Part shown: one piece after another, positions 20,406 to 38,598 of the stretch
Layout of the letters: the number at the start of each line of letters is the position of its first letter
Position numbering within the stretch: the stretch's first letter is position 1
Source of the DNA: Bacteroides sp. AN502(2024)
Lineage (GTDB): Bacteria > Bacteroidota > Bacteroidia > Bacteroidales > Bacteroidaceae
NCBI RefSeq assembly: GCF_041227145.1
Contig: NZ_JBGFSP010000011.1
Coordinates: 1 to 64,000 of the forward strand
DNA length: 64,000 nt
Direction: 5' to 3'
Position numbers and translations under genes: made by a program
Notes under the pieces: model-generated
Told to the model about the DNA's origin: nothing
Database searches by the model: none
What the model saw: the letters and a program-made list of their open reading frames with translations, nothing else

Positions 20406-20780
20406 TCAAGCCGTTATCTTCTGATAAAGACCTGATAAGAACTGAATTGCCCCAAAGATGATGGCTCCCCATGTAACAATATATGTTCCACCCTCACGGG
20501 CTGCATTGGAATAAGTAACAGCGGTAACCAGCAATCCTCCAATACACCATAAAGCACCATATAACATATTTTTATTAGCAGCCTTGCTTTTTGCTTCTTT
20601 CATCTGTTGTTGAAGATTGGACACTATTATGTTCGCATCTTCTGCATTTAATCCTTTTTCTGCTAAGATGTTTTTCACATCTTTTATAGTCCGATGCTGT
20701 TTAAATAATAAATCGGCAGCAAAAGCATAGATTTGATTGACTAAATCTTGATTTTCTTGTTCTGTTCTTTGTTCTTTCAT
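20406..20780 (-). CDS. Small two-helix membrane protein
   Basis: 124 aa. The N-terminal 70 residues are helical and charged (NQIYAFAADLLFKQHRTIKD). Two transmembrane helices follow (MLYGALWCIGGLLVTAVTY and TYIVTWGAIIFGAIQFLSGL). It lies 7 bases after the 246-aa gene. No family recognised. Confidence 0.7.
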   Translation of the reverse strand: MKEQRTEQENQDLVNQIYAFAADLLFKQHRTIKDVKNILAEKGLNAEDANIIVSNLQQQMKEAKSKAANKNMLYGALWCIGGLLVTAVTYSNAAREGGTYIVTWGAIIFGAIQFLSGLYQKITA

Positions 20781-20787
20781 AATCTTT

Positions 20788-21528
20788 TTATTTATCTGTT
20801 ACGTTTACAATCCAAGTCCACCCAAATTGAATAACAATTAAAACAAGCCACATATGCCAACACATGTTAAAAGTCCATGATGGGAGAAAATCTGTATTTA
20901 GAAGCCAATGGTCTATAACGTAAACAGCCCAATAAAGAATTATAAAAACGTAAAGAGGAGAAGTGGACTTGTTAATCATTGCTTGATAACAATTGTGATA
21001 ATGAATATTGTATTCATCTTTAGTAGGGTATTGTTGTTTCAATTCTTTCAGATATTTTAAAGCCCCCATATATCTTTCCAATCTGAGTAAAATTGTTGAT
21101 TTAAGATTTAAAATCGCTTCATATATTTCTTTGTAATCTTCTTTGCTAATGAGGTTTATTCCTTTTCCCAAAACAGATAAAGCATCATCAATATAAGATA
21201 GTGAGTCTTTACAATATCCGTTTTCTGCAAGATTTTTTCCATATTGAAAATAGACGCCTACCAATGAGAGGACTTCATTGCGATTTTGTCCTTTTTCCAT
21301 TGAACGGATTTCCATATTATATTTTTCCAAAAACTGTTCGATTCCAATTGTTCCATCGAACAACGCTTTTGTCGCTTCTACTATATTCCAATTTCCCATC
21401 GCTTCAATTTCTATTTTACCATTATGATTTATTTCTGTACACTCAACTTTTTTGGGTATTCCATCTTGTGGTAGGCTATATGCAACCCTATAGCCAAGAG
21501 TATTCGTTATTGCACTTGATACTATCAA
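20788..21528 (-). CDS. TPR-like membrane protein
   Basis: 246 aa. The middle is helical with a TPR-like pattern (YFQYGKNLAENGYCKDSLSY, LLRLERYMGALKYLKELKQQ). Two hydrophobic helices close the protein (YVFIILYWAVYVIDHWLL and MWLVLIVIQFGWTWIV). It starts 14 bases after the PP2C gene, so it may be part of that signalling operon. Confidence 0.68.
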   Translation of the reverse strand: MIVSSAITNTLGYRVAYSLPQDGIPKKVECTEINHNGKIEIEAMGNWNIVEATKALFDGTIGIEQFLEKYNMEIRSMEKGQNRNEVLSLVGVYFQYGKNLAENGYCKDSLSYIDDALSVLGKGINLISKEDYKEIYEAILNLKSTILLRLERYMGALKYLKELKQQYPTKDEYNIHYHNCYQAMINKSTSPLYVFIILYWAVYVIDHWLLNTDFLPSWTFNMCWHMWLVLIVIQFGWTWIVNVTDK

Positions 21529-21542
21529 AGTAATAGCTGTGT

Positions 21543-23339
21543 CTATAATTCTTCTTCTACTATATCATTCATAATCTGCCTAAACACATCCCCTGCCATC
21601 AATCCACCGCTTGCAGGCAATCCTTTCTTGCGAATGGAAACGATAATGCTGTATTTCGGGCTATCGGTAGGGAAGTAACCACAAAACTCCACAGCATATT
21701 CATCATTTGGAAGGCGGACTGTTCCCGTTGCTCCTGCCACTTTGACCTTATCAGATTTGGCAGGTTTGGCTAATCCATCGGTAACGGCATATTCCAATGT
21801 CTGCTTCACACTGTCAACGGATGCGGCAGTACCTTTGGCAATGGCATTGTAGAAGGTCAGGTTCTGCAATGGAGTGGTGAGGATGCCATATCCCAGAGGA
21901 TTATAAACAAAGCTTGTGTCTTTCACTTGATAACCGTATCTGGCAAGTGTCTCCGCAAAGGCTCGTTCATCCCCAAACGCCTTTCTGACAGTTTTATAAT
22001 TGGCAATGTTGGAAGCGACTCCCACACCTTGCTCCACTGTAATTTCTCCATATCCACCCCGATGCCAATTACGGTCTAATAATGTATCTTTATCAATAAC
22101 TAAAATTCCATTTCCAACATCCACCGTATCGGATAGTTTGACTGTCTTTGTCTCCAGTGCAGCCAAAAGTGAGGCGATGCGCACCAATCCCGATTCTTGC
22201 AGGATGGAATCAGAACCGACAGAAGCTTTGATTTCACCCGTTTGAACTTCCATTACAATAACCTGACCCGATATAGCGTTAAGTTCGGACAACTTATTTT
22301 GCAGGATGGAATCAACTTTCACCTGCAATGTGCTGTCTATGGTAGAAACCGGGGCTGCACTTATCTTGGTAAACCTGTAAGCCGTAAAGACGACAAGTAA
22401 TATCAGCAAAACTCCTACCATACAAACTATAATGGTTTTCCATCCTGTCAGCCCTCCCTTAGTCCGATCATGAGGTGAGGCTTCTTTCTCAGCATGTTCA
22501 GCCACTACCGAAGCCACCATCAAATCATTCACTACGTCCTTCTCTTCTATTCCTCTCTCCACCTTATCAACCGGAATGAGAATGCAAGTATAATTATCTT
22601 TTGTCCTGCCATTGCAGATGTCCTTGATTGCTTGCAACTTTTCGGTGTCAGTAAGCTTTTTGTCTGCCAATATCGAACACAGTTCGTCATTCGTCAACTG
22701 CTCCAAAACACCGTCGCAGCAAAGGAAGAAATAATCTCCCTCTTCCACATCCGAAAAATTAAATACATCAGCTTTGGAGCGATGTGGTAAGTTGGGTTGC
22801 ATGGCACGGGTTATCACATTCTTCTGAGGGAAATTCCGTGCTTCCTCTTCCGTCAACTCACCGGCCTTCAGTAGGTCATTAACCAGCGAATGGTCGGAAG
22901 ACTGATACAAGATGCCGAGCCGGTCATTGGCTTTATCCACATACGAAGGACGGATATGGTAAATGCGGCTGTCACCAATATGGGCAACCAGATAACCACC
23001 CCGATGCAGGCAAAGGCAAACCATGGTGGTTCCCATCTTTCTCATCGCATTGTCATCCTTTTTGTCCAGTTCGTCGTATGCACGGTCCAATGCTTCTTTA
23101 AAAAGCTCCGGAGACATGAATCCATCTTTCGGATAGTGGCATTCCAAATACCGTCCCAATGCCATACATATCGTCCGGCTCGCCACTTCTCCATGCTCAT
23201 GCCCTCCCATGCCGTCACACAGAATAAAGAGACGGTTCTTGGGGTTTAATTGTTTCATAGAAGGATAGGTGCAATCCTCCTGATTGTCTTTTTGCCCTAT
23301 TTCGCTAAATCCAATTGGCTTTCTGATAGTTATATTCAT
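21543..23339 (-). CDS. PP2C phosphatase fused to an inactive transpeptidase-like domain
   Basis: 598 aa. Residues 1-260 are a PP2C (PPM) Ser/Thr phosphatase with intact metal motifs: DGMGGHEHGE (42-51), GTTMV, HIGDSRIY (120-127), CCDG (207-210) and KDNYT. One transmembrane helix (about 302-320) leads to a periplasmic penicillin-binding-protein-like transpeptidase domain (about 340-598; VIVMEVQTGEIKASV, GYGILTTPLQNLTFYNAI, GYFPTDSPKYSIIV). All three catalytic motifs are lost: SxxK reads GLVR (384-387), SxN reads ASN (442-444) and KTG reads ATG (537-539). It probably reverses the island's kinases, with the dead domain sensing a cell-wall ligand. It sits 4 bases after the FHA gene. Confidence 0.9.
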   Translation of the reverse strand: MNITIRKPIGFSEIGQKDNQEDCTYPSMKQLNPKNRLFILCDGMGGHEHGEVASRTICMALGRYLECHYPKDGFMSPELFKEALDRAYDELDKKDDNAMRKMGTTMVCLCLHRGGYLVAHIGDSRIYHIRPSYVDKANDRLGILYQSSDHSLVNDLLKAGELTEEEARNFPQKNVITRAMQPNLPHRSKADVFNFSDVEEGDYFFLCCDGVLEQLTNDELCSILADKKLTDTEKLQAIKDICNGRTKDNYTCILIPVDKVERGIEEKDVVNDLMVASVVAEHAEKEASPHDRTKGGLTGWKTIIVCMVGVLLILLVVFTAYRFTKISAAPVSTIDSTLQVKVDSILQNKLSELNAISGQVIVMEVQTGEIKASVGSDSILQESGLVRIASLLAALETKTVKLSDTVDVGNGILVIDKDTLLDRNWHRGGYGEITVEQGVGVASNIANYKTVRKAFGDERAFAETLARYGYQVKDTSFVYNPLGYGILTTPLQNLTFYNAIAKGTAASVDSVKQTLEYAVTDGLAKPAKSDKVKVAGATGTVRLPNDEYAVEFCGYFPTDSPKYSIIVSIRKKGLPASGGLMAGDVFRQIMNDIVEEEL

Positions 23340-23343
23340 ACGT

Positions 23344-23892
23344 TTATACTATTTGAGTCGCTTCTTCGTCTGTCGCCTCCAGATAGACGTCCGTCTTTCC
23401 TAAGGTTAGCTTGTCACCTAACTGTAGTTTCAAAATATCATTCCGCTGAATGGGCTTTCCATTCAGGGCAATGACATTCTTTGAATTTATCTCCACAAGG
23501 TGATGCTCAATGCCATGCACTGTTTTCACCACGTCTATCCGAAGGTGGCGACGGCTCATGTATTCGTCATGAGTAATCTGAATATCCGCATCGCTGTTTT
23601 TAGCAATGCGCCCGATGATGTTCACTCCCATTTTCAGCGGGCAATGTTGTTCTGTACCATCGACTCTTATTTGTCCGATATCAAAGTTCTGCGGCACCCT
23701 GTATCCCGGCAACTGCGTCTCCTCCTCTGCGCTTCCCAGACCGCCTTTTGCAATCGCACCGCCCTGATACACGTTGGCCTTTGCCTTGAAATGGCAAATG
23801 GGGCATTCCACTATCTTCTCCTCATAGCCGGGCGCTTCCGGAAAAGAGAGACGGGTGCGGCAATTGGGGCAAACTAAAAACATCTTTCTCAT
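23344..23892 (-). CDS. Zinc ribbon-FHA domain protein
   Basis: 182 aa, cytosolic. An N-terminal four-cysteine zinc ribbon (CPNC 8-11, CPIC 30-33) leads to a C-terminal FHA domain with GR (94-95), SRRH (113-116) and NG (144-145), the residues that bind phosphothreonine. It also carries two acidic threonine motifs, EEETQL (Thr59) and EEATQIV at the very C-terminus (Thr179, Val182 at +3), which could be phosphorylated and bound by FHA domains. It sits between the EF-hand gene and the phosphatase and is probably the island's cytosolic reader. A later ATG at codon 4 is possible. Confidence 0.88.
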   Translation of the reverse strand: MRKMFLVCPNCRTRLSFPEAPGYEEKIVECPICHFKAKANVYQGGAIAKGGLGSAEEETQLPGYRVPQNFDIGQIRVDGTEQHCPLKMGVNIIGRIAKNSDADIQITHDEYMSRRHLRIDVVKTVHGIEHHLVEINSKNVIALNGKPIQRNDILKLQLGDKLTLGKTDVYLEATDEEATQIV

Positions 23893-23905
23893 ACGATTCT
23901 ATCAC

Positions 23906-24832
23906 TCATGCCATTGAACTAATGTCTGCATCGTTCACATAATCCGGCATCCCGTCATTACAAGCAGTCATCATCCCCGGGTTTGGGCTTGAAATCATCT
24001 GTTGCAAGTCGGCAGTAGTGATACGGGCATCAGACACATCATAGATCTCATTTTCACTTATCTGTCCGTCTCGGTTTTCGTCTATCATGATTACATCCAT
24101 CATCCCGTTGTTGTCCACATCCACCAGCAGACTTTGGTTCCCCTCCACTTCCACGGCAGCCACGGTCATGGGGTTCCCTTGCTGATCCGTCACAGCCTCT
24201 ACGCCCAGTATCTTTATGCTCTCATTGGTGGCAGACTGTTCATCCACCAGTTCCGCATGGCTCTCCATCCGTGGCTTTTCCATCCCTGAGTTTGCCACAG
24301 CGGTTCTTTCCTCCGGTTCCCCAGCTATTGTCCGATAATCTATTTTAGCCTGATACTGTGCCCGTTCCTCCATAGACATACCGTTCCACTCTTCTTCATA
24401 ATACGTGCCATATACATGTCCCCGCCATTCAAACGCGCCTCCCGCACCTACCTGCCTTCGCGCATCGGCAAAGGCTTCATCAAACGAGGCGTCATCATTC
24501 ACTTGCGCAATGCGCACTCCTTCATTCGTAGCCAATAGTACATCTTCTTGGTTGGGCACGGACGCGACAACTTCTTCTTGCACCTCCGTTTGTACATTCT
24601 CGGCTGTATTTTGCGCCGTTTCCTCCACTTGCGTTTCGGCAGAAGGAACAATCTCTTCCGTTTCTGCCTGACCTGTAGCTGCAAAAGCACTACCGGTAAC
24701 ACCACTTGCCACACCGGTGGCATATCCGCCTACGGCATAAGCCATTTTCCCACCCACATTTCTTTTCTGTGGATTGTTGTTCTCTGTTTCCTCTTGGGGG
24801 TGATTCAGAATTTTAGTTTCTTCTTTATCCAT
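23906..24832 (-). CDS. Acidic EF-hand-like protein
   Basis: 308 aa. The N-terminus MDKEETKILNHPQEE carries the island's shared acidic-Thr motif (Thr6, Leu9 at +3). A glycine/alanine-rich stretch (AYAVGGYATGVASGVTGSAF) could pack in a membrane. A long Glu/Gln/Val-rich region follows, then a domain with a calcium-loop-like sequence (DENRDGQISENE, about 250-261) and a preceding DVDNNGMMD loop. Likely a kinase substrate or adaptor. The first 45 bases are copied at 33401-33450. No named family. Confidence 0.72.
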   Translation of the reverse strand: MDKEETKILNHPQEETENNNPQKRNVGGKMAYAVGGYATGVASGVTGSAFAATGQAETEEIVPSAETQVEETAQNTAENVQTEVQEEVVASVPNQEDVLLATNEGVRIAQVNDDASFDEAFADARRQVGAGGAFEWRGHVYGTYYEEEWNGMSMEERAQYQAKIDYRTIAGEPEERTAVANSGMEKPRMESHAELVDEQSATNESIKILGVEAVTDQQGNPMTVAAVEVEGNQSLLVDVDNNGMMDVIMIDENRDGQISENEIYDVSDARITTADLQQMISSPNPGMMTACNDGMPDYVNDADISSMA

Positions 24833-24893
24833 GATCTCAGAGTTTTAATCGTCACTTTACTATATATCAATATTTGTTTAAACATTTGTTTTC

Positions 24894-26504
24894 TCATCTG
24901 CTTGTAACACCTCTTACAGAGCGCCCGACATAATAGGGTGCCGTAGAATAAGCATCCACACCGCATTTGGCAATGATACAATAAACAGCCTGATGCTTAT
25001 GAGACTTATCAACCATCGCACTCCAATAATAGCCATAATTCTCAGAGAAATAGGTTTTACAACCATAACGACGTCCCGCACATGGCAAGAAAATCTTTTG
25101 CCGTGTGCTACCTGTTATGATGTAACCCGAGATAGAAGGCAATTCAACCCATTCCCAGTTACAACAAAGAATCAATTCATTCCATTGATCCGGAGTAGGA
25201 AGACACCAATCTTTTCCAAACCGATGAGTAACAATATCATATTCAGTTCCTGCAATATTGTCGGGAAAAGAACGGCCGTCCAAGTAATAACTTTCAGACA
25301 TTTCCTCACCGGAGACATCTCCCCAACAATACAATGGTCCTTTATCCGCTGTACACAGGCTACCCACATTACAACTGCCCCATTTTACACTCAATCCTAA
25401 ATCCACTGCGGTTAGTGTTCCTAAATCCTGCACCCCTAAAGATGAAAGTGAAAAACTTATTTCTTCAAAGCCTTTCTTGAAAGGATGAAGCAATAGTGTT
25501 TCTTCCCTATTGGCTATAAGAGGAACCTCAAATGGATTTTGTTCCTTTGAAAATGATGTACCGGATGTTGCATCAAAAGCATTGCAAACTCTATGCTGCT
25601 TTTCTCGGAGATTTACCAGTTCAAATAGATTCAAAAACTCTGTAATGTTTTGAGGGCGTTTCTTTCTGACTGGGTCCATCGCTTTAGCAATGGCTTTTTG
25701 CACCTTTAAACTTATACTACCACTCATCTCCGGCAATCCTTCGTTCAAAACAACACTTGCATCAGGAGGAGTTTGTCCAGTTAGCATTTTATAGAGAGTA
25801 GCTCCCAAGGCATATATGTCAGTAGTAGGAGAGAACGTACCTACTCCTCCCATGCGCAATTGCTCCAAAGGTGCATAGCCCACGCTTACTCCGACTGGAG
25901 TTGTGCTCGTCTGTTCTCCATTTGCATCGTAGCATTTAGACAACCCAAAATCTATCAATACAACTTTTCCTTCTTTATTCAGCAATATGTTGTCGGGCTT
26001 TATATCCAGATGATTCATTTGTTGTTGATGAATATAATCAAGAGCGTCGGCTATTTGCAGAACATACGAAAGTGCCTCATCTTCAGAAAGAGTCCCTTTC
26101 TCCTTGATATAGTCGCCCAACGATCCTTTGTCATGATATTCCATTACATAGTAAGCCGTATTGTTTGCTTCAAAAATGTCCACTACCTTTATTATATGTG
26201 GATGATTCAGCTTGGCTATGTTATGAGCTTCTTTTATGAACTTCTGCTTAAAGCGTTCTACCTGCTGTTTGCTACCAATGGAAGGAATCGTTACGACATC
26301 GTTTCCTTCTTCTCTGTAGCAAATTTCTTTCATAAAGAATTCTTTGATAGCCACTTTTATGTCTGTCTCTATCTTTCCGATAGAGCCTTCAATGACAACG
26401 TGTTGTGAGGCAAGATAGGTGATTCCAAAACCACCTTGACCCAATACTTTTTCTATTTTATATTTTCCTCCTTTAAGGAGCGTGTTTTTATGAAGTTGTT
26501 GCAT
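24894..26504 (-). CDS. Hanks-type Ser/Thr kinase 1 with C-terminal FISUMP-like domain
   Basis: 536 aa. Kinase domain about 14-290: glycine loop GQGGFG, Lys54 in VAIKEFF, catalytic loop HLDIKPDN (165-172), DFG (186-188) and a Thr-rich activation segment TSTTPVGVSVGYAPLEQ. The acidic-Thr motif EETLLL follows at 335-339. The C-terminus (about 366-536) is a FISUMP/DUF1566-like domain (VDLGLSVKWGSCNVG, FGKDWCLPTPDQWNELI, YIITGSTRQKIFLPCAGRR, YYWSAM). No transmembrane helix is seen between the two, unlike kinase 3. It differs from the other three kinases by an insertion after ASQHVV. Confidence 0.9.
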   Translation of the reverse strand: MQQLHKNTLLKGGKYKIEKVLGQGGFGITYLASQHVVIEGSIGKIETDIKVAIKEFFMKEICYREEGNDVVTIPSIGSKQQVERFKQKFIKEAHNIAKLNHPHIIKVVDIFEANNTAYYVMEYHDKGSLGDYIKEKGTLSEDEALSYVLQIADALDYIHQQQMNHLDIKPDNILLNKEGKVVLIDFGLSKCYDANGEQTSTTPVGVSVGYAPLEQLRMGGVGTFSPTTDIYALGATLYKMLTGQTPPDASVVLNEGLPEMSGSISLKVQKAIAKAMDPVRKKRPQNITEFLNLFELVNLREKQHRVCNAFDATSGTSFSKEQNPFEVPLIANREETLLLHPFKKGFEEISFSLSSLGVQDLGTLTAVDLGLSVKWGSCNVGSLCTADKGPLYCWGDVSGEEMSESYYLDGRSFPDNIAGTEYDIVTHRFGKDWCLPTPDQWNELILCCNWEWVELPSISGYIITGSTRQKIFLPCAGRRYGCKTYFSENYGYYWSAMVDKSHKHQAVYCIIAKCGVDAYSTAPYYVGRSVRGVTSR

Positions 26505-26506
26505 AA

Positions 26507-26878
26507 TTATATAATTTGCTTATTAACAAGTAGCTTGGTTAGTTCAGCTTCTTCTACAGGAGTTATACCAAAACCTAAATTATTAGTTTCTAAAAACTCC
26601 CATTTAAGCATATAGTTACAACCTGCATTTGTGTCTTTTTTAGTCAACAAATCATTGTATATGCTTTCCTTGATTTTATCTGAAAAATGAACTTCTTTCA
26701 ACCTGTTTTCCCTTGTGAGTGCAGCAAGTATCAAGATACGTTCTTTGTTAAAAAACAAATGTAATTTAGTTAATGGTCTTCTGATACAATATAAACTACA
26801 TAATATCAATTTTGATTGCTCGTCATACAAATCTTCGGATATTATTTTATTATTTTCGTTAATTATACGTACTATCAT
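26507..26878 (-). CDS. Hypothetical protein
   Basis: 123 aa, AT-rich, without signal peptide or membrane helix. It begins MIVRIINENNKIISEDLYDE and ends TPVEEAELTKLLVNKQII. It ends 2 bases before kinase 1, so the two are probably translated together and it could be a partner or regulator of that kinase. No family recognised. Confidence 0.65.
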   Translation of the reverse strand: MIVRIINENNKIISEDLYDEQSKLILCSLYCIRRPLTKLHLFFNKERILILAALTRENRLKEVHFSDKIKESIYNDLLTKKDTNAGCNYMLKWEFLETNNLGFGITPVEEAELTKLLVNKQII

Positions 26879-26941
26879 ATGCTTAATATTTAATCAATAA
26901 AAGAACTACCAAATTGCTACCATACTGTTTTATAAATATTT

Positions 26942-27051
26942 TTACAAATATTGAATAGCAAGGTAAGTGATACCAAAATCACCATGGCCCAATACTTTCT
27001 CTATCTTATATTTCCCCTTTGGAGGAATTTGTTTTTAGGTAATTGTTGCAT
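26942..27051 (-). pseudogene. Remnant of a fifth kinase gene (N-terminus)
   Basis: Minus-strand DNA reads MQQLPKNKFLQ, then after a frameshift KYKIEKVLG, a GHGDFGITYLA variant of the glycine loop, QYL and a stop. This matches the first 35 or so residues common to the four kinases (MQQLPINVLLQGG, KYKIEKVLGQGGFGITYLA). The rest of the gene is gone. Confidence 0.88.
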
Positions 27052-27058
27052 ATATCAC

Positions 27059-27718
27059 CTATAATTGTTGTTTATCTACTATTTCTTTAACTTTATAATC
27101 ATTTGGATAGGTATTCGCTTCTTCAATTGTTATGCATTTCCATACTTTTGCTAAACGATAAATTGGATAAGGATAACAGGTTCCATCCTCAAAATTGAAA
27201 TCTAACTCATCAAACTCTTTTTCTAAAACGAGTTGTGCTAAATCTATTTTCGTTGGTGCTATAACAATAATATCATCCGGTGAAACCTTTGAAAAATCAA
27301 AACTATTTCCTCTTATCCTCCATTCTCTCAACCATGTATAATCATGTTCGTCTAAGTCTAATTTCTCAAATCTCCACCTTAAAGAATCGTCCAATAAATT
27401 ATACTCTTTCAAATCACCATATATTACAGGACGAGCTTTATATTCTCTAATAAGCATATCTCTATCAAAACCTATGCCAAATTTAGAATACATCGGATTC
27501 CTCCAAGGATAGAATGAATACATGTAGTTAAATTGCTCTATAGAATGACTAAGCGGAGATTCTGTAAAACAGATATATTCAAGTTCATTTGATTTCAAAC
27601 ATCTTTCAGATAAGATATTTATCATTATATCTATAGGTTCTTCGATACTTGTAAAATGGAACAAATAGGGAGACAAATCAGGTTTTCTCTTTCTTATGTT
27701 TTCACTAGGATTTTTCAT
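27059..27718 (-). CDS. Hypothetical protein, AbiGi/DarT-like N-terminus
   Basis: 219 aa, soluble. The N-terminal pattern YLFHFTSIEEPIDIMINIL, then LEYICFTESPLS, resembles AbiGi-type and DarT/DUF4433-type proteins, which share an ADP-ribosyltransferase-like fold. WLREWRIRGN and IIVIAPTK lie further on. The similarity is by eye and weak; catalytic residues cannot be assigned. It lies 18 bases after kinase 2, with the kinase remnant just downstream. Confidence 0.6.
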   Translation of the reverse strand: MKNPSENIRKRKPDLSPYLFHFTSIEEPIDIMINILSERCLKSNELEYICFTESPLSHSIEQFNYMYSFYPWRNPMYSKFGIGFDRDMLIREYKARPVIYGDLKEYNLLDDSLRWRFEKLDLDEHDYTWLREWRIRGNSFDFSKVSPDDIIVIAPTKIDLAQLVLEKEFDELDFNFEDGTCYPYPIYRLAKVWKCITIEEANTYPNDYKVKEIVDKQQL

Positions 27719-27736
27719 AATACTGATAATTCTACT

Positions 27737-29891: not shown

Positions 29892-29909
29892 TTACGTGAA
29901 CAGCAAGAA

Positions 29910-29940
29910 GCCCCCGGCAAATTTTTGAGCTGCCGAGGGC
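29910..29940. terminator. GC-rich hairpin
   Basis: GCCCCCGGCA (29910-29919) pairs with TGCCGAGGGC (29931-29940), one mismatch. On the minus strand it follows kinase 3 and is trailed by TTCTTG, so it may attenuate transcription between kinases 3 and 2. It abuts the Sel1 remnant. Confidence 0.4.
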
Positions 29941-29983
29941 TCGCAAGTGGAATATTTTACAAACATTGTTTCATTCTATATTG

Positions 29984-32407
29984 TTAATTTGAGACAGGAC
30001 GAATCGTTAATCCATATCCAAACCGAAGAAGTCTTACTTCGGTTAAATATTCTTTTCCGAATAAAAGTGCAAATGCTGAATTATCATCATTTGATGTACT
30101 ACTCCAATAATCGCCTGCATTTTTATCCCTATATGATATTTCTGTTTTACTATCACCTGCAGGTAGAAAAATGGAATTACTATTAGGACCAGTAATTATA
30201 TAACCTTTTATATTATTTTCATCAAACCATTCCCAATCGCATTTGTCTTTAAGCTCAATAAATTCAGATTTTGTAGGCATTCTCCAAGTTCCTCCCCATT
30301 TGTTATGTACTACATCAATCGATGAACCTGATATATCCATACTAGATAATTCTTTTATATTACTATAATTGATACCATATTTAGCTTTAGTTGAAGTTTC
30401 TCCCCATGAGTAATAATCACCAAAATCATATGGATAATTAGCTCCAATATTACGTGTTGCCCATTTGACACTCAATCCAATATCAACATACTCATATTTA
30501 TTTATCCTTCCCATTGAATTTTTACCATAAACCACCATATACTTTTTTAATTGCATAGCATTACTTTTTGCTAGTTCTTCTCCTTGCTCTGCGGCTTTAC
30601 TAAACCATTCAAAGGCTTTTACATAATCCTGAGATATTCCATATCCATATTCATACATAAGCCCTAAATTGCGTTGCGCAACTGCATTTCCTTGCTCAGC
30701 GGATTTTCTATACCACTCTACCGCTTTTACCAAATCTTTTTCCACACCTTCACCGTATTCATAACAATAGCCCAAATTACATTGCGCTTCTGCATTTCCT
30801 TGCTCAGCGGATTTTCTATACCACTCTACCGCTTTTACCAAATCTTTTTCCACACCTTTACCGTTATCATAGCAAACTCCCAAATTGAATTGCGCACTTG
30901 CATCTCCTTGCTCGGCGGCTTTTCTACACCATTCTACCGCTTTTACCAGATTTTTCTCCACACCTTTACCGTTATCATAGCAAACTCCCAAATTGTATTG
31001 CGCTGTTGCATCTCCTTGCTCGGCGGCTTTCCTATACCATTCAACAGCTTTTCCAGGATTCTTATCCACGCCTTCACCGTTAGCATAGCAAACTCCCAAA
31101 TTGAATTGCGCTTTTGCATGTCCTTGCTCGGCGGCTTTTCTAAACCATTCTACTGCTTTTACCGGATTCTTATCCACACCTTCACCGTAAGCATAGCAAA
31201 CTCCCAACTTGAATTGTGCACTTGCATTTCCTTTTTTGGCAGCCTTCTCAAAATAAGGAATCGCCTCTGCATAAAGTGAATTTTCATAATATTCTATTCC
31301 TTTCTGATACAAATCTTCAGCAAAAGGGCGAATAGAAAAGAATACACCTGTTATACCTAAAAGACAGACTAAAAACCAAACTTTTTTATGCTTACCGCTT
31401 TCCTTCTTCTTTGTATCAGTAATAATAGCTTGTGGTTCAGAATGAACAGTTCCTTTCACATCCTCAGCCTGAATCATTTTCGTTTCTTCTTCCTCCTCAT
31501 AGACCGTTTCCGATGATTGATGTTTCTCTTCCAAAACAGAACTGTTATGCACATCCAGCAGAGAAACAAAAGCATCCACATCTCTCGGCCGGTCTTTCTT
31601 CTTCACCTGCATGGCACATTCTATGGCATTCTTCACCCCATCGGAAAGACGGGGAGGCAATGCGGGAAGCCCTTCGTTCAACACATCGCTTGCCTGCGGA
31701 GGGGTGTCACCCGTCACCAGCTTGTAAAGCGTTGCACCTAAAGAATAGATATCCGTTTGAGGTGAGAAATTGCTTACACCGCCGACGTTGTATTGCTCCA
31801 TCGGGGCATAACCGTGGCTGATGCCTACGGGAGTCGTGCTTGTCTGGTCACCGCCAAAATCATATTGCTTGGAGAGGCCGAAATCAATGAGAATGACATG
31901 ACCGGAACAATCTACCATGATATTCCCCGGCTTGATATCCAAATGAAGGAGGTTTTTGCCGTGTATGTAACTCAGTGCATCCGCCACCTGCCTGATATAA
32001 TCCACCGCTTCCGCTTCGGATAACATGCCATCGCGGTTCACCCTTTCAGCCAAGGATTCCCCCTCAATATATTCCATCACATAATAAGCCGTATTGTTCT
32101 CCTTGAAAATATCGTGAATACGGATGATATGAGGATGGTTAAGCTGCGAGATGGTACGCGCCTCTTTGATGAACTTGGTCATAAAGCGTTCCACCACTTC
32201 CCGGTTGCTCTGTGTGCCGAGCGTGACATGACTGGTGGCTTCGTCACGTTCGCAATACTCCTTGTAAAAGAATTCCTTGATGCAGACCTTGCGATCCAAC
32301 AACTCTTGTGAGGCAAGGTAGGTGATTCCAAAACCACCTTGCCCCAACACTTTCTCTATCTTGTATTTGCCTCCTTGAAGGAGGACATTAATTGGTAATT
32401 GTTGCAT
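29984..32407 (-). CDS. Hanks-type Ser/Thr kinase 3, membrane-anchored, Sel1 repeats plus FISUMP-like domain
   Basis: 807 aa, the most complete architecture of the set. Kinase about 14-285 (Lys44, HLDIKPGN 155-162, DFG 176-178). The acidic-Thr motif EEETKMI has Thr309 with Ile312 at +3. A transmembrane helix lies at about 343-359 (VWFLVCLLGITGVFFSI). At least six Sel1 repeats of 36 residues follow (AQFNLGVCYANGEGVDKNPG type), then a FISUMP/DUF1566-like domain (VDIGLSVKWATRNIGANYP, WRMPTKSEFIELKDKC, DYWSSTSND). With the N-terminus inside, both sensor parts face the periplasm. Its start overlaps the upstream gene by 20 bp. Confidence 0.93.
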   Translation of the reverse strand: MQQLPINVLLQGGKYKIEKVLGQGGFGITYLASQELLDRKVCIKEFFYKEYCERDEATSHVTLGTQSNREVVERFMTKFIKEARTISQLNHPHIIRIHDIFKENNTAYYVMEYIEGESLAERVNRDGMLSEAEAVDYIRQVADALSYIHGKNLLHLDIKPGNIMVDCSGHVILIDFGLSKQYDFGGDQTSTTPVGISHGYAPMEQYNVGGVSNFSPQTDIYSLGATLYKLVTGDTPPQASDVLNEGLPALPPRLSDGVKNAIECAMQVKKKDRPRDVDAFVSLLDVHNSSVLEEKHQSSETVYEEEEETKMIQAEDVKGTVHSEPQAIITDTKKKESGKHKKVWFLVCLLGITGVFFSIRPFAEDLYQKGIEYYENSLYAEAIPYFEKAAKKGNASAQFKLGVCYAYGEGVDKNPVKAVEWFRKAAEQGHAKAQFNLGVCYANGEGVDKNPGKAVEWYRKAAEQGDATAQYNLGVCYDNGKGVEKNLVKAVEWCRKAAEQGDASAQFNLGVCYDNGKGVEKDLVKAVEWYRKSAEQGNAEAQCNLGYCYEYGEGVEKDLVKAVEWYRKSAEQGNAVAQRNLGLMYEYGYGISQDYVKAFEWFSKAAEQGEELAKSNAMQLKKYMVVYGKNSMGRINKYEYVDIGLSVKWATRNIGANYPYDFGDYYSWGETSTKAKYGINYSNIKELSSMDISGSSIDVVHNKWGGTWRMPTKSEFIELKDKCDWEWFDENNIKGYIITGPNSNSIFLPAGDSKTEISYRDKNAGDYWSSTSNDDNSAFALLFGKEYLTEVRLLRFGYGLTIRPVSN

Positions 32408-32822
32408 TATTACTATTTTTGAACCAACCTTTTGTTTCCCTATATTTAATGATGTATGGATTTAAAATATGACTTTTGTCTTCAAATCCATACTCACCAT
32501 AGAATTCTATGTCTATTCTTTCCGTTCTATTTTGCTTGTTTTTATTCCTTTTGTCAAGATAATAGCTCTTTGAAGCACCTGTTCCAGATCCCATTGTATT
32601 ATGTATGTTTTTTATTATATATTCATGGATTCTGAGAACTTGCAATGCAACTTTCCCTCCTTTTTTCTTCCCAAATTTATCTCTTACTTTTAACGCTAAA
32701 CTTGCTAATGCAACAATAATCTGTGCACTTGAAATTGGTCGCTTAGATTCAACCAATTCTGAAACATAGTCACTTTGTCCCTTTTGATATTGACATCTAA
32801 ACCTATTTAAACAATTATCCAT
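32388..32822 (-). CDS. Hypothetical protein
   Basis: 144 aa, basic, soluble. It begins MDNCLNRFRCQYQKGQ and has a helical middle (SSAQIIVALASLALKVRDKF) with a lysine-rich segment. Its 3' end overlaps the kinase 3 start by 20 bp, implying coupled translation. No family recognised. Confidence 0.65.
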   Translation of the reverse strand: MDNCLNRFRCQYQKGQSDYVSELVESKRPISSAQIIVALASLALKVRDKFGKKKGGKVALQVLRIHEYIIKNIHNTMGSGTGASKSYYLDKRNKNKQNRTERIDIEFYGEYGFEDKSHILNPYIIKYRETKGWFKNSNNATITN

Positions 32823-32846
32823 GTTTCCTGAGATATTTTATGTACC

Positions 32847-33347
32847 TTACAACTCTTCCATCATTACTATTCCTTGTCCCTTTGTATAAAACTTACTCTC
32901 CCTTTTTATGATTTTTGCAACCCCTTGAAATAGTCCTTCTACAGAATCTGATTTAATTTCATCAAAATTAAGGGAAGACGTTTTCCAATATTGTGTTGCT
33001 GTCTGGGCATTTATCCCATTAATCATATATACTGATGAATCAAACCATTTAACACAACCTTTTTCTATTTCTAATGTCAGAAGTATATATTGGGGGTTGC
33101 CAAACACATTAGCCCACTCTGCTTCATATTCATCTTTCATTATATCAGAAAATACAAATAAGGATGTCAATCTTGAAGGACAATCTGCAAACTGATTTAC
33201 TCGAACGTCTTCAAACAAACTCTCCAATTTCTTCTTCTTCTCAGAAAGTTTATTTATATCTCGATTTATTGCTGATGTATCAATAGCTTTGCAATTCTCA
33301 TAATACTTACAGTAATTATCGTTACTGACTACATGATATATATTCAT
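32847..33347 (-). CDS. Hypothetical protein, DUF2441-like
   Basis: 166 aa, soluble. MNIYHVVSNDNYCKYYENC, then PSRLTSLFVFSD and YILLTLEIEKGCVKWFDSS, with a late AQTATQYW, resemble DUF2441-type proteins that are thought to adopt an ADP-ribosyltransferase fold. This is a by-eye resemblance only. The gene lies between kinases 4 and 3, 24 bases before the 144-aa gene. Confidence 0.6.
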   Translation of the reverse strand: MNIYHVVSNDNYCKYYENCKAIDTSAINRDINKLSEKKKKLESLFEDVRVNQFADCPSRLTSLFVFSDIMKDEYEAEWANVFGNPQYILLTLEIEKGCVKWFDSSVYMINGINAQTATQYWKTSSLNFDEIKSDSVEGLFQGVAKIIKRESKFYTKGQGIVMMEEL

Positions 33348-33400
33348 AGTTCATTATTTAAAGTAGTGATTTCTTTTTTGTAAATTGCTATTTTCTATTC

Positions 33401-33450
33401 TTAGGGCTGATTCAGAATTTTAGTTTCTTCATTATCCATGATTTCAGAGT
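33401..33450 (-). pseudogene. Copied 5' end of the EF-hand protein gene
   Basis: The minus strand holds a 12-codon frame MDNEETKILNQP then TAA, nearly identical in DNA and protein to the start of the gene at 24832 (MDKEETKILNHP), including bases upstream of the ATG. It lies within the last codons of kinase 4, in another frame, so kinase 4 now ends inside a fragment of that gene. Confidence 0.8.
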
Positions 33451-35424
33451 TTTTTTGTTGTATCTCTTTAATGCTTCTATCGCCCTTTCATTTCCTTGAT
33501 CAGCAGACTTTTTCCACCATTCTACAGCTCTTACTATATCCTTTTTTATACCCTCGCCGTTATAATAGCAATGTCCTAAATTAAGTTGCGCATCTGCATT
33601 TCCTTGCTCAGCGGCCTTTCTATACCATTCCACCGCTTTTACCGAATCTTTTTCCACGCCTTCACCGCTATTATAACAAATTCCCAAGCAGTATTGCGCA
33701 TCTGCATCTCCTTGCTCAGCGGCCTTCCTATACCATTCCACCGCTTTTACCGAATCTTTTTCCACGCCTTCACCGCTATTATAACAAATTCCCAAGCAGC
33801 ATTGCGCATCTGCATTTCCTTGCTCAGCGGCCTTTCTATACCATTCCACCGCTTTTACCGAATCTTTTTCCACGCCTTCACCGCTATTATAACAAATTCC
33901 CAAGCAGCATTGCGCATCTGCATTTCCTTGCTCAGCGGCCTTCCTATACCATTCCACCGCTTTTACCGAATCTTTTTCCACACCGTTACCGTAATCATAG
34001 CAAACTCCCAATTTGCATTGCGCACCTGCATTTCCTTGCTCAGCGGCCTTCCTATACCATTCTACCGCTTTTACCGAATCTTTTTCCACGCCTTTACCGT
34101 AATTATAACAAATCCCCAGGCAGTATTGCGCACCTGCATTTCCTTGCTCAGCGGCCTTCCTATACCATTCCACCGCTTTTACCCAATCGCCTTCACTGAT
34201 ATTATAACACATCCCCAAGCGGTATTGCGCTTCTGCATTCCCCTGCTCAGCGGCCTTCTTATACCATTCCACCGCTTTTACCGAATCTTTTTCCACACCG
34301 TTACCGTAATCATAGCAAACTCCCAATTTGCATTGCGCAACCACATATCCTTGATTGGCAGCTTTATCCAAAAAAGGAATTGCTTCCGTATAAAGTGAAT
34401 TTTTATAATATTCCATTCCTTTCTGATATAAATCTTCAGCGGAAGAGTAAATAGATAGAGTTTGCTCCGGCTCTTTTGCATTCTCAGCCTGAATCACTTT
34501 CGTCTCCTTTTCCTCATAGGCCGTTTCCGATGATTGATGTTTCTCTTCCAAAACATAACTGTCATGCATATCCAGCAGAGAAACAAAAGCATCCACATTT
34601 TTCGGCCGGTCTTTCTTCTTCACCTGCATAGCACATTCTATGGCATTCTTCACTCCATCGGAAAGACGGGAAGGTAATACGGGAAGTCCCTCGTTCAATA
34701 CATCGCTTGCTTGCGGAGGGGTATCACCTGTCACCAGCTTGTAGAGCGTTGCCCCTAAAGAATAGATATCCGTTTGAGGTGAGAAATTGCTTACACCGCC
34801 GACGTTGTATTGCTCCATCGGGGCATAACCGTGGCTGATGCCTACGGGAGTCGTGCTTGTCTGGTCACCGCCAAAATCATATTGCTTGGAGAGGCCGAAA
34901 TCAATGAGAATGACATGACCGGAACAATCTACCATGATATTCCCCGGCTTGATATCCAAATGAAGGAGGTTTTTGCCATGTATGTAACTCAGCGCATCCG
35001 CCACCTGCCTGATATAATCCACCGCTTCCGCTTCGGACAACATGCCATCGCGGTTCACCTTTTCTGCCAAGGATTCCCCCTCGATATATTCCATCACATA
35101 ATAAGCCGTGTTGTTCTCCTTGAAGATATCGTGAATGCGGATGATATGAGGATGGTTAAGTTGCGAGATGGTGCGCGCTTCTTTGATGAACTTGGTCATA
35201 AAGCGTTCCACCACTTCCCGGTTGCTCTGTGTGCCGAGTGTGACATGACTGGTGGCTTCGTCGCGTTCGCAATACTCCTTGTAAAAGAATTCCTTGATGC
35301 AGACCTTGCGATTCAACAACTCTTGTGTGGCAAGGTAGGTGATGCCAAAGCCACCCTGTCCCAGCACTTTCTCTATTTTGTATTTGCCTCCCTGAAGGAG
35401 GGTGTTCATCTTTAATTGTCGCAT
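33412..35424 (-). CDS. Hanks-type Ser/Thr kinase 4 with Sel1 repeats, soluble
   Basis: 670 aa. The kinase domain is almost identical to kinase 3 (Lys44, HLDIKPGN 155-162, DFG 176-178). The acidic-Thr motif KETKVI has Thr308 with Ile311 at +3. The transmembrane segment present at this point in kinase 3 is absent: the sequence goes from KEPEQTLSIYSS straight to AEDLYQKG. About eight Sel1 repeats follow, several identical over long stretches, so these are probably cytosolic. The last codons come from a fragment of another gene. First kinase after the caspase gene. Confidence 0.92.
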   Translation of the reverse strand: MRQLKMNTLLQGGKYKIEKVLGQGGFGITYLATQELLNRKVCIKEFFYKEYCERDEATSHVTLGTQSNREVVERFMTKFIKEARTISQLNHPHIIRIHDIFKENNTAYYVMEYIEGESLAEKVNRDGMLSEAEAVDYIRQVADALSYIHGKNLLHLDIKPGNIMVDCSGHVILIDFGLSKQYDFGGDQTSTTPVGISHGYAPMEQYNVGGVSNFSPQTDIYSLGATLYKLVTGDTPPQASDVLNEGLPVLPSRLSDGVKNAIECAMQVKKKDRPKNVDAFVSLLDMHDSYVLEEKHQSSETAYEEKETKVIQAENAKEPEQTLSIYSSAEDLYQKGMEYYKNSLYTEAIPFLDKAANQGYVVAQCKLGVCYDYGNGVEKDSVKAVEWYKKAAEQGNAEAQYRLGMCYNISEGDWVKAVEWYRKAAEQGNAGAQYCLGICYNYGKGVEKDSVKAVEWYRKAAEQGNAGAQCKLGVCYDYGNGVEKDSVKAVEWYRKAAEQGNADAQCCLGICYNSGEGVEKDSVKAVEWYRKAAEQGNADAQCCLGICYNSGEGVEKDSVKAVEWYRKAAEQGDADAQYCLGICYNSGEGVEKDSVKAVEWYRKAAEQGNADAQLNLGHCYYNGEGIKKDIVRAVEWWKKSADQGNERAIEALKRYNKKTLKSWIMKKLKF
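33530..34350 (-). repeat. 108-bp DNA repeats encoding Sel1 units
   Basis: About eight consecutive units, several with near-identical DNA over the full 108 bases (for example those starting near 33600, 33708, 33816 and 33924); one unit is three codons short (near 34190). Such identity allows unit gain and loss by slippage or recombination. A milder array lies in kinase 3 (about 30590-31240). Confidence 0.85.
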
Positions 35425-35428
35425 CTGC

Positions 35429-35461
35429 TAATTTGTCTTTTTTACTTATCAAGACAAATTA
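35429..35461. promoter_or_regulatory. Inverted repeat upstream of kinase 4
   Basis: TAATTTGTCTT (35429-35439) and AAGACAAATTA (35451-35461) are perfect 11-bp arms around an 11-base spacer, immediately before the kinase 4 ATG. The minus-strand arm contains TTAATTTG, similar to a -7 box, with a TTTG about 20 bases further up. It could be an operator or an RNA hairpin at an internal promoter. Confidence 0.45.
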
Positions 35462-35539
35462 ATGGAGAATGAATGGAACAAACAATTTATAAACAGAATA
35501 ATGGATGAGTTGTGCGGATTAGTTGATGAAATGAAATAA
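35462..35539 (+). CDS. Possible 25-aa peptide, divergent from kinase 4
   Basis: Plus-strand frame MENEWNKQFINRIMDELCGL followed by VDEMK and TAA. It is protein-like and starts right at the inverted repeat, but it opposes all its neighbours and may be a leftover piece of a gene. Confidence 0.25.
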   Translation: MENEWNKQFINRIMDELCGLVDEMK

Positions 35540-35546
35540 GGATACG

Positions 35547-36293
35547 CTATCGTCTGTTCCAGTCGAACAGCACTGTATCATCTTCAAACTTTCCCCACAT
35601 CACGGGATGCTGCTTGCCATCGGTCTTTTCCCCAACCTTCCGGCTGACGTATCGAAACAACTCCTTAGCCGTAATTTTCCGGTTCTTGTCCGCATCGGCT
35701 CCACCACGTAACCCTCTCAAAAGATAAGTGGTGAACACCCCGTTCGCCATGAACGGGCTCTCGATGGAGGCCTCTCCGGTACGCGAAGAGAGGAACAGCA
35801 AGACATCGGGAGTATTTACAGCGTGGGAATGTATGCCGGAGGCGTTTCCCCGAATGCCGCCCGAAAAGCAAGCATCCAGGAAGAGGACTTTCCGACTTGC
35901 ACGTGACTGTTTCAAGATGCTCTGTATCTCTCGATAAGTAATCCCTTTTCCTCCTTTCGCTGGCATATCATAAGGACAAATGCCGTCCGCATAACCATGT
36001 CCGCTAAAAGCAAATACCACCATGTCGTCCTCCTTGGCACGGGAGAACTGGTCTTTCAGGCTTTTCAGCAATACAGCTTTGGTGGCATACTTGCCGGTTA
36101 TCAGAATGACATGCTTGGTCTGAAGTTTGTATAGAGCGGCTATAGCTTTCGCATCTTTCTCGGGAAGTACTAAGGAAGGAATTTCCTGATAGCCTGACAC
36201 GCCTACCACTACTACATAAACATCGCCTTTAGCCTCTCCTTCGGAACATACAAAAAGGAAAGGGAATAAGAAAAATAAAACCAGTCTGTTCAT
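35547..36293 (-). CDS. Secreted caspase-like protease (peptidase family C14)
   Basis: 248 aa from the ATG at 36293, which overlaps the upstream TGA as ATGA; an earlier in-frame start would hide the signal peptide (MNRLVLFFLFPFLFVC). Caspase/metacaspase core: VYVVVVGVSGYQEIP, catalytic His99 in FAFSGHG, catalytic Cys142 in LDACFSGG, and the late GVFTTYLLRGLRGGAD. Such proteases cut after basic or acidic residues and can trigger cell death or signalling. Export places it in the periplasm, the compartment of the kinase sensor domains. Coupled to the FHA gene. Confidence 0.9.
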   Translation of the reverse strand: MNRLVLFFLFPFLFVCSEGEAKGDVYVVVVGVSGYQEIPSLVLPEKDAKAIAALYKLQTKHVILITGKYATKAVLLKSLKDQFSRAKEDDMVVFAFSGHGYADGICPYDMPAKGGKGITYREIQSILKQSRASRKVLFLDACFSGGIRGNASGIHSHAVNTPDVLLFLSSRTGEASIESPFMANGVFTTYLLRGLRGGADADKNRKITAKELFRYVSRKVGEKTDGKQHPVMWGKFEDDTVLFDWNRR

Positions 36294-36976
36294 GTCCACT
36301 TGCATTTGCAGAAACTGCATACCGATTTGTTTGCCAATGTCTCATAAGGAACAAAGCCTAAGAAATTTCCACATTTGGGGCAGACATAATCAATCATGAA
36401 CTGCTTGTTTAGCGCCTCCATTTTTTCCGGATTCTCTTTGCTTCCTTTGTAGGATTTGGCTAAAGAATATATCAATAAAACAATGCCAGCCGTACCTACC
36501 ACAGGGGCGAAGTTACCCAGTCCCGGCAAGACGGCTGCCGTCAGGCCCACAAGTGACATCAACGTCATAGGGAGCATCCTATAAAAATTGTTTATCCCGG
36601 CTTCCTTCTGAATGGCAATTTTATCCGCAGAGTAGCGGTCGTACACAGCTTTCAGCTTGCGGAACTTTTCCTGATACTCTTTTTCAATGGAACTCAGGGT
36701 TGCTGCCTGCGATGAATGTCCCGAAGGGACAGAAACAGGAGAAGGCAACAAATCCCTTACACGGACAATGAAACTGCTGCCCAAGCGAATTTCGGTATTA
36801 ACGGTCACCTGTGTACGGACAATGCTTTTCCCATCTACAAAAGTTCCGTTGACACTCAAATTCTCCAAGGTATAAGTCCCGTCCGAATTGGAAGTTAACT
36901 TGCAATGTTCCCTGCTGACGCTTAAATCGGTAATAGCAACCGATTGTTGCCCTTTACGTCCAACAATGATTTCCAT
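36290..36976 (-). CDS. FHA-membrane-zinc ribbon protein
   Basis: 228 aa. An N-terminal FHA domain starts at once (MEIIVGRKG, SVSREHC 19-25, NGTFVDG), so the phosphothreonine pocket residues are present. A charged coiled-coil-like helix (about 95-125) leads to two hydrophobic helices (MTLMSLVGLTAAVLPGL and FAPVVGTAGIVLLIYSL). The C-terminal four-cysteine ribbon (CPKC, CSFC) ends in KCKWT. Membrane-bound reader of phosphorylated partners. Placed 2 bases after the LytTR gene and overlapping the caspase gene as ATGA, so the three are one translational unit. Confidence 0.88.
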   Translation of the reverse strand: MEIIVGRKGQQSVAITDLSVSREHCKLTSNSDGTYTLENLSVNGTFVDGKSIVRTQVTVNTEIRLGSSFIVRVRDLLPSPVSVPSGHSSQAATLSSIEKEYQEKFRKLKAVYDRYSADKIAIQKEAGINNFYRMLPMTLMSLVGLTAAVLPGLGNFAPVVGTAGIVLLIYSLAKSYKGSKENPEKMEALNKQFMIDYVCPKCGNFLGFVPYETLANKSVCSFCKCKWT

Positions 36977-36978
36977 GG

Positions 36979-37335
36979 CTATTTCTGTGTATATAAGTTT
37001 TTTAGGTTCTTCAAAGCTTCTTTTGAAACTGAAAGAGTAAACAGGTGAGGAGCTTCGAAATTGGTAAGAAGCAGTTTCTGTTTCAAAGTATTAATCTGAA
37101 AGATACATGTACTGTTGACAATATAGCGTTTTCCGATGCGGATAAAAGTCTGCGTTTGCCCTTTCAATTTTTCGTCAATCAGCGTTTCGATGTTTCCCAA
37201 ACTATATAGCAAAGTCGCTTTTGCTGCATTCGAAAATATAATGTGAGTATAATTGCCATCCGCTTCAAAATAGACGACATGGCTTAAATCCACTCTTATC
37301 AGTTCGTCCCTTGTGTTAAATAGTAGTATTTCCAT
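36979..37335 (-). CDS. Stand-alone LytTR DNA-binding protein
   Basis: 118 aa comprising only a LytTR domain (VVYFEADGNYTHIIF, TFIRIGKRYIVNSTCIFQI), without a receiver domain. Proteins of this type bind direct repeats upstream of their own or nearby operons. It is the first gene of the minus-strand island, so it is the best candidate regulator of it. How it is activated is unknown; phosphorylation by the island kinases is possible. Confidence 0.85.
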   Translation of the reverse strand: MEILLFNTRDELIRVDLSHVVYFEADGNYTHIIFSNAAKATLLYSLGNIETLIDEKLKGQTQTFIRIGKRYIVNSTCIFQINTLKQKLLLTNFEAPHLFTLSVSKEALKNLKNLYTQK

Positions 37336-38563: not shown

Positions 38564-38598
38564 TCACCGGCCTTCGTGAAGAGTTTCCTCACATCAGT

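Follow-up and report, generated by a model that had tools for sequence, protein, structure and literature searches.

A putative trans-envelope phosphothreonine signalling island with exchangeable sensor kinases and a linked caspase in Bacteroides sp. AN502(2024)

In the 64,000-nucleotide stretch of Bacteroides sp. AN502(2024) analysed here (NCBI RefSeq assembly GCF_041227145.1, contig NZ_JBGFSP010000011.1, positions 1 to 64,000; hereafter the window), an island of 16 open reading frames (ORFs) runs from position 37335 down to 20406, all on the minus strand. The island probably forms a single trans-envelope phosphothreonine signalling module with exchangeable sensor kinases, whose outputs would be LytTR-controlled transcription and an exported caspase. 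Eight of the 15 intervals between the ORFs were overlaps or gaps of less than 15 bases (2, -31, -20, 2, 13, 4, 14, and 7), and the remaining seven measured 18 to 249 bases. The first-pass annotation of this DNA had placed a LytTR regulator, an FHA-membrane protein, a secreted caspase, four kinases, a zinc ribbon-FHA protein, an acidic EF-hand-like protein (EF protein), and a PP2C phosphatase on one strand with several such overlaps or short gaps. This layout was confirmed, and Pfam backed the LytTR, FHA, caspase, kinase (four Pkinase matches, E about 1e-42 to 1e-43), and PP2C assignments. The gene of the EF protein was also present, and its EF-hand call was weak (E 0.016, below the cut-off). 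Across the 4.8-Mb genome, no Pkinase matches at E<=0.001 were found other than these four kinases, and the island accounted for two of the three FHA matches of the genome. The principal genes and sites, all on the minus strand (-), were as follows.

36979..37335 (-): LytTR DNA-binding regulator, 118 amino acids (aa); PF04397, E 1.3e-10; no receiver domain found
36290..36976 (-): FHA_TM, N-terminal FHA domain (PF00498, E 5.8e-14) and two hydrophobic segments (residues 135-173)
35547..36320 (-): caspase-like protease (Peptidase_C14, PF00656, E 1.2e-18) with an N-terminal hydrophobic export-like segment
33412..35424 (-): Hanks kinase with Sel1 repeats; no transmembrane (TM) segment called
34492..34509 (-): KETKVI (Thr308), after the kinase domain of the 33412..35424 kinase
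29984..32407 (-): Hanks kinase, TM at residue 345, Sel1 repeats, C-terminal Lcl_C/FISUMP-like domain
31472..31489 (-): motif EETKMI (Thr309), linker between the kinase domain and TM of the 29984..32407 kinase
27737..29734 (-): Hanks kinase, TM at residue 349, Sel1 repeats
28793..28810 (-): motif EATMIL (Thr311), linker between the kinase domain and TM of the 27737..29734 kinase
24894..26504 (-): Hanks kinase, no TM called, C-terminal FISUMP-like domain (FISUMP profile 98.5 bits, residues 406-534)
25488..25505 (-): motif EETLLL (Thr336), after the kinase domain of the 24894..26504 kinase
23906..24832 (-): EF protein; N-terminal motif, Gly-rich segment, predicted modules 107-170 and 206-281, acidic C-terminus
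24806..24823 (-): motif EETKIL (Thr6), N-terminus of the EF protein
23344..23892 (-): ZnFHA, zinc-ribbon-like N-terminus (zinc ribbon below the cut-off) and FHA domain (PF00498, E 1.2e-9)
23707..23724 (-): EETQLP (Thr59), linker of ZnFHA
23347..23364 (-): motif EATQIV (Thr179), the final six residues of ZnFHA
22566..23339 (-): PP2C phosphatase domain, residues 1-258 (PP2C_2, E 1.2e-12)
22380..22436 (-): TM helix of the PP2C protein, residues 302-320
21558..22352 (-): predicted extracytoplasmic pseudo-transpeptidase domain of the PP2C protein (PF00905, alignment, and Foldseek, as described below)

The gene set recurred in other genomes. ZnFHA matches at E<=1e-8 were found in 45 of 399 genomes of the family (15 of 30 genera) and in 9 of 393 genomes of the order, both counts taking in the genome of the window itself as well as stand-alone relatives that lack the cluster. 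Strong matches to the PP2C half (E<=1e-40) occurred in 7 of 59 genomes of the same genus, and the EF profile search gave matches in 5 of 395 genomes of the phylum, own genome included. The first 32 ZnFHA-anchored neighbourhoods, some of which were cut by contig ends, contained PP2C (20), kinases (19), FHA_TM (16), LytTR (15), EF (14), and caspase (12) genes, and nine contained none of these core genes; of 20 ZnFHA loci examined later, 13 had at least one further core gene and seven had ZnFHA alone. Four or more of the core classes were present in 26 Bacteroidota loci, which are mutually related and were picked by ZnFHA, PP2C, or EF matches. All core genes were on the same strand in 26/26, and their order was largely conserved: ZnFHA preceded PP2C in 22/26, the caspase gene was within the block in 18/26, LytTR stood immediately before FHA_TM in 18/26, and EF preceded the caspase gene in 10/26. 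Three loci were left out of this count, namely L051 and L040 (the same places as L093 and L094) and L103 (a near-copy of L109). The maps were drawn from the longest ORFs with an overlap filter, which missed some genes (FHA_TM in L048, and ZnFHA in L092 and L101). Therefore, the module is real and patchy in distribution, and the co-occurrence across genomes proposed as a check in the first-pass annotation was found. No publication on this gene set was found among the matches listed in a search of open-licence literature; the circuit is conserved and apparently undescribed.

FHA domains recognise phosphothreonine and are selective for the residue at the +3 position. In the window, a short FHA-ligand-like motif, acidic-acidic-T-x-aliphatic, recurred in several island proteins. 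Across the island loci, it was found in 45 of 61 kinase linkers (shuffled mean 6.0, maximum 13 in 500), 16 of 24 EF N-termini (shuffled mean 1.7), 14 of 35 ZnFHA C-termini (1.3), and 10 of 35 ZnFHA linkers (1.6), with identical proteins counted once and matches at kinase residues 238-270, inside the kinase domain, discounted. Elsewhere it was at or below chance: PP2C linkers (2/35), PP2C domains (8/34), FHA_TM (0/22), the ZnFHA domain (0/34), LytTR (1/21), caspase (3/20), and the rest of the EF protein (5/23). Since the pattern had been set (widened) after inspection of these same sequences, comparisons with non-island kinases and held-out loci weigh more. Among non-island kinases of the same class, the motif was present in 1 of 26 (shuffled mean 1.3); this set was drawn from 30 kinases, from which L168 and L179 (near a PP2C) and L176 and L180 (short linkers) were left out, and it includes L165, near a weak ZnFHA match. 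In 20 held-out loci, using profiles built on the first sequence set, the motif occurred in 8 of 12 kinase linkers (0.7 when shuffled; 0/500 shuffles reached this), 5 of 17 ZnFHA linkers (0.6; 0/500), 3 of 9 EF proteins (0.5; 5/500), and none of 12 PP2C linkers. The +3 residue had two flavours, aliphatic or other, and the kinases and EF protein of one locus agreed in it (r 0.93, n=18, 0/5000 permutations). In the distant loci L145-L149, the motif was sometimes clear and sometimes not.

The C-terminal parts of the kinases varied. The 64 island kinases (four in the window and 60 relatives) had a common catalytic domain with the consensus HLDxKP, and their C-terminal domains included Sel1 (7), FGE-sulfatase (7), Lcl_C (5), PEGA (3), TonB_C (2), FKBP_C (1), and others, as counted from 25 of 34 families in the Pfam scan. 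Three window kinases carried Sel1 repeats and two a FISUMP-like domain; the catalytic domains encoded at 33412..35424 and 29984..32407 shared 94.5% DNA identity, which dropped sharply beyond them. The islands of L103 and L109, from two different genera, were 95-99% identical in DNA over orthologous blocks, and their PP2C, caspase, and FHA_TM proteins were 95-100% identical per 40 columns. Between these two islands, the kinase adjoining FHA_TM had been substituted whole by another kinase, and the second kinase was 95-97% identical over the first 240 columns, 77% over the next 40, and at most 27% thereafter, so that the ectodomain had changed; a TIID tag was kept in both versions, one of them outside the strict pattern. 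This recent swapping of ectodomains in islands that are otherwise almost the same points to recombination as a source of sensor diversity. According to an excerpt of PMC3482391, polymorphic toxin systems also combine a constant N-terminal module with exchangeable C-terminal cassettes, whereas here a signalling kinase forms the constant part and what is exchanged looks like a sensor, not a toxin.

The PP2C protein consisted of a PP2C domain, one strong hydrophobic helix, and a domain of the penicillin-binding transpeptidase family (PF00905, E 1.3e-12). For the PP2C domain, NF033484 was the best-matching family model even though its score (E 8.1e-47, 159.7 bits) stayed below the cut-off of 230, and the PDB sequence match was Stp1 (2pk0, E 6.8e-27). 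Alignment with six class B penicillin-binding proteins (PBPs; FtsI type) of Bacteroides, at 39-41% identity over the domain, indicated that none of the three motifs of an active enzyme, SxxK, SxN, and KTG, is intact in the window protein. In the dead TRANSPEPTIDASE of the C-terminal half, GSTFK reads GLVR at the catalytic columns (G and R in the serine and lysine columns), SSN reads ASN, and KTG reads ATG. In 14 aligned non-PBP relatives, the serine was gone in 14/14 and the lysine in 13/14 (P0001 retains it), while some retain SSN and the L009 copy retains KTG. The AF2 model of the PP2C protein had a mean pLDDT of 76, lower in the transpeptidase half, with a helix of low confidence at 303-324; a Foldseek comparison with the PDB matched it to structures of PP2C (E 3.7e-18) and of PBP3 (E 1.4e-13). 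The domain resembles class B PBPs in sequence and fold, and differs from them in having lost the catalytic motifs and in being tethered to a phosphatase or free in a lipoprotein-like protein. Lipoprotein-like copies in L035, L038, L039, and L043 (Bacteroides cellulosilyticus and Phocaeicola) were 73-77% identical to the window domain, and one further full-length relative with PP2C and such a domain, P0001, was only 42% identical in the transpeptidase half. The pseudo-transpeptidase domain may therefore have moved between lipoprotein-like genes and phosphatases.

The window caspase had both catalytic His/Cys motifs (SGHG and DACFSG), and its relatives carried SGHG in 21/21 and DAC in 21/21 (16 by regular expression and five by inspection); a comparison with PDB sequences gave no match at E<=0.1. 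In L147, PP2C and caspase were joined in a single 521-aa ORF (6372-7937). A protein search with this fusion returned 258 matches, and 12 of the best 120 carried both domains (P0121-P0132), covering 99-100% of the query at 49-93% identity. Each of these belonged to a separate 90%-identity cluster; therefore the fusion is not a single sequencing error. In 12/12, basic residues followed by a hydrophobic stretch lay between the domains, resembling a signal anchor. The predicted arrangement, PP2C inside and caspase outside, would be the topology of the window PP2C with its pseudo-transpeptidase. We know of no account of how exported bacterial caspases are controlled, and the island ties phosphosignalling genetically to a caspase for which export is predicted. 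The island caspase shares SGHG and DAC with prokaryotic orthocaspases and differs from them by its export-like N-terminus and, in some lineages, its fusion with PP2C. Among the listed matches of the fusion search there were also PP2Cs with WG repeats (PF14903).

The scheme that follows, in which phosphorylation, docking, ligand, and outputs are inferred, builds on what the sequences establish, namely the gene set, its order, the motifs, the broken PBP motifs, the fusions, and the ectodomain swaps. Several Hanks kinases with a near-constant catalytic domain would sense different cues through exchangeable C-terminal domains, many of them beyond a membrane helix. Once active, they would phosphorylate a tag threonine in ZnFHA, in the EF N-terminus, and in their own linker. 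FHA_TM and ZnFHA could bind this single tag through their FHA domains and bring the components together at the membrane. PP2C would strip the tag, tuned by its own ectodomain; in the window this is the dead penicillin-binding domain, which may recognise peptides of the cell wall but leave them uncut. The likeliest outputs, being most consistent with the gene pairing, would be transcription under LytTR via FHA_TM and regulation of the exported caspase, which is fused to PP2C in other lineages. Such a module would provide a testable wiring diagram of one motif, several kinases, two readers, and one eraser, with a cell-wall-like sensor carried by the phosphatase rather than by a kinase.

Several observations weigh against this scheme. 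No TM was called in two of the four window kinases, and membrane insertion of the EF protein was weakly predicted, with none called in the window copy. The strict motif was missing from some kinases and EF proteins; the window's KETKVI is one acidic residue short and was not matched by the regular expression. In the held-out loci, 0/17 ZnFHA C-termini had the motif, so that the C-terminal copy is lineage-limited, and +3 agreement was only 3/4. Shared ancestry accounts for part of the agreement in the first set, whose loci are mutually related and include both L103 and its near-copy L109. Caspase and EF were absent from the stretches L113, L114, L115, and L119, so neither is obligatory, and the pseudo-PBP domain was on only two PP2Cs, those of the window and P0001.

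The first-pass annotation had proposed one envelope-sensing circuit of kinases, readers, and eraser, perhaps for defence, competition, or regulated death. At the level of sequence, the envelope-facing write-read-erase circuit is upheld by the co-occurrence, the motif, the PP2C helix with its ectodomain, and the fusions, whereas the suggested roles found no specific support, the PADLOC matches covering only the generic kinase or caspase domain. A further reading, which we entertain tentatively, is a trans-membrane switch for death or remodelling: sensor kinases swapped between strains like cassettes would write the tag, FHA readers would assemble on it, and PP2C would convert it into proteolysis outside, its outer half being a caspase in the fused lineages or the dead PBP here. 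Defence against phages, of the toxin-antitoxin type, appears unlikely; here toxic kinases would be held by PP2C, as in KKP (kinase-kinase-phosphatase) systems of prophages, and the caspase would be a death effector released on inhibition of PP2C by a phage. The patchy distribution (ZnFHA in 45/399 family genomes), the recent intergeneric transfer (95-99% DNA identity), the replacement of the segment relative to two close relatives with transposase-like ORFs seen by eye, and strong matches of the kinases to the PADLOC profiles mad6 and PD-T4-6 would fit this, as would the precedent of KKP, in which, according to an extract of PMC11341870, kinases with variable C-termini stand beside a PP2C. However, the best stretches of the PADLOC matches (mad6, PD-T4-6, and caspase) were confined to the kinase or caspase domain (two kinases scanned, with 25 of 34 and 25 of 38 families), and seven other island proteins scanned had no PADLOC matches. 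The four window kinases also lacked a match at E<=0.1 to the cold-shock domain PF00313 of the PfkA-like fusion of KKP. The island has four kinases against two in KKP, and in addition two FHA readers, a caspase, LytTR, and extracytoplasmic domains; rather than the KKP order of PP2C followed by two kinases, its PP2C lies downstream of all four, with EF and ZnFHA between. Moreover, the ectodomains, the export segment, and the dead PBP point outward and not to a cytoplasmic phage sensor.

PstP is the PP2C eraser of the mycobacterial PknB circuit, which shares with the island a transmembrane Hanks kinase, an FHA reader, and a link to the cell wall. An ordinary regulator of envelope or cell-wall stress like PrkC/PrpC or PknB/PstP, with LytTR as the sole output and the caspase as an unlinked protease for maturation or quality control, is doubtful. 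It agrees with the PBP-like ectodomain on PP2C, with the islands that have no caspase, and with the recruitment of FhaA via the juxtamembrane region of PknB as described in a passage of PMC6180346; PP2C-caspase fusions, the same-strand caspase gene within 18/26 blocks, and the four window kinases, none of which matched PASTA repeats at E<=0.1, argue against it. The island differs from the PknB-PstP-FhaA/GarA system in that a single tag is common to several kinases, a reader, and a third protein, the PBP-like sensor is on the phosphatase, a caspase is attached, and PASTA repeats are lacking. Relative to PASTA kinase/PP2C pairs, two scanned window kinases scored 164 and 175 bits with NF033483 (cut-off 450), and the curated cut-off for a Stp1/PrpC-type PP2C was not reached. 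Secretion control by a triad like PpkA-PppA-Fha of type VI secretion is very improbable: the activities (kinase, PP2C, and FHA) are the same, FHA_TM matched the VI_FHA model weakly (E 4.6e-5, 23.4 bits, cut-off 120.25), and Fha binds a phosphothreonine of a membrane partner, Thr14 of TssL (from a portion of PMC3953482), yet the island adds a kinase array, a caspase, and LytTR, and no secretion family was found by Pfam among the 16 ORFs. PF05943 was not found in the genome in a search whose control matched only in E. coli, sensitivity to Bacteroidales sheaths not being established. That the genes are unrelated and merely adjacent in an accessory region is hardly credible; the accessory position and several small ORFs without an assigned role would agree with this, whereas the single strand in 26/26, the recurring adjacencies (ZnFHA-PP2C 22/26), the shared motif, and the fusions disagree. 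Overall, the signalling module with LytTR and caspase outputs accounts for the gene set best.

Several further observations concern the readers, the EF protein, and the regulator. The C-terminus of FHA_TM contained zinc-ribbon-like CxxC pairs by eye. The third FHA match of the genome was a stand-alone ZnFHA relative, L182 (G000 contig C4, 244939-245166), in which no motif was seen and beside which there were no kinases; similar zinc-ribbon FHA proteins were also present in L122-L125 and L127-L129. The AF2 model of the EF protein had a mean pLDDT of 66.5, with two modules mostly above 90, and its fold had no PDB structure match at E<=0.001. Many EF proteins (alignment A3) share a conserved acidic C-terminal tail, D.PDY.NDAD. 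Presumably, the DAC motif of the caspase indicates a basic P1 residue. For this reason, the idea that the caspase cleaves within the NDAD tail was given up, prokaryotic orthocaspases cleaving after positively charged residues according to part of PMC6426788. Upstream of 22 LytTR genes, including that of the window, no shared repeat (LytTR box) was evident by eye. The pattern TTTG-N18-22-TANNTTTG, which we take to be a Bacteroides promoter pattern, had seven matches in the window and none between 13.8 and 38 kb; the pattern is very strict and says little.

Stand-alone dead-PBP lipoprotein-like genes (psTP) were observed in L035-L039 and L043 (at about 9986-10861 of the locus; in L036, 1140-2000). 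In B. cellulosilyticus and Phocaeicola, the next gene was in each case a conserved lipoprotein-like one (MRRLLFII..., 209-250 aa), and small secreted-looking ORFs surrounded them. A BlaR1-like origin of the transpeptidase half was considered and rejected: in P0002, P0016, P0053, and P0075, a lipoprotein-like leader is followed by the domain, leaving no room for M56.

The remaining six ORFs of the island were small: four had no clear family assignment, and two were membrane ORFs.

32847..33347 (-): small ORF; weak DUF2441 match (E 0.001, below the cut-off)
32388..32822 (-): small ORF; no Pfam family found
27059..27718 (-): 219-aa ORF without an assigned function; match in L092 (score 372, 74.8% DNA identity)
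26507..26878 (-): small ORF; no convincing Pfam family
20788..21528 (-): TPR-like ORF with two hydrophobic segments; candidate member of the system only
20406..20780 (-): small ORF with two hydrophobic segments; candidate member of the system only

In L092, the counterpart of the 219-aa ORF is also located between kinases, and its DNA identity is above that of the kinases around it.

The segment from 13347 to 45856 of the window consists of the island and transposase-like ORFs where two close relatives (L150 and L151) carry housekeeping-looking genes. In the relatives G012 and G001, fbp (the gene at 11353-13347 of the window) and a response-regulator gene are 12-14 kb apart, and the genes between them appeared by eye to encode sugar-phosphate and nucleotide-sugar enzymes. 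An IS3-like pair at 38186-39441 adjoins the LytTR end of the island (by eye). Two transposase-like ORFs at 84-1235 and 5946-7097 are of equal length, with the first 90 residues identical by eye. The ORF at 14897-16171 is a fusion of DUF1810 and ADP-ribosylglycohydrolase, and in L043 a matching ORF (12381-12812) is separated by 1.5 kb from the dead-PBP gene. The sequence NTT..FADIGNRG was seen by eye both at the N-terminus of the 19273-20361 product and in an ORF of 97 aa close to the dead-PBP gene of L036-L039, as if the two came from the same cassette array.

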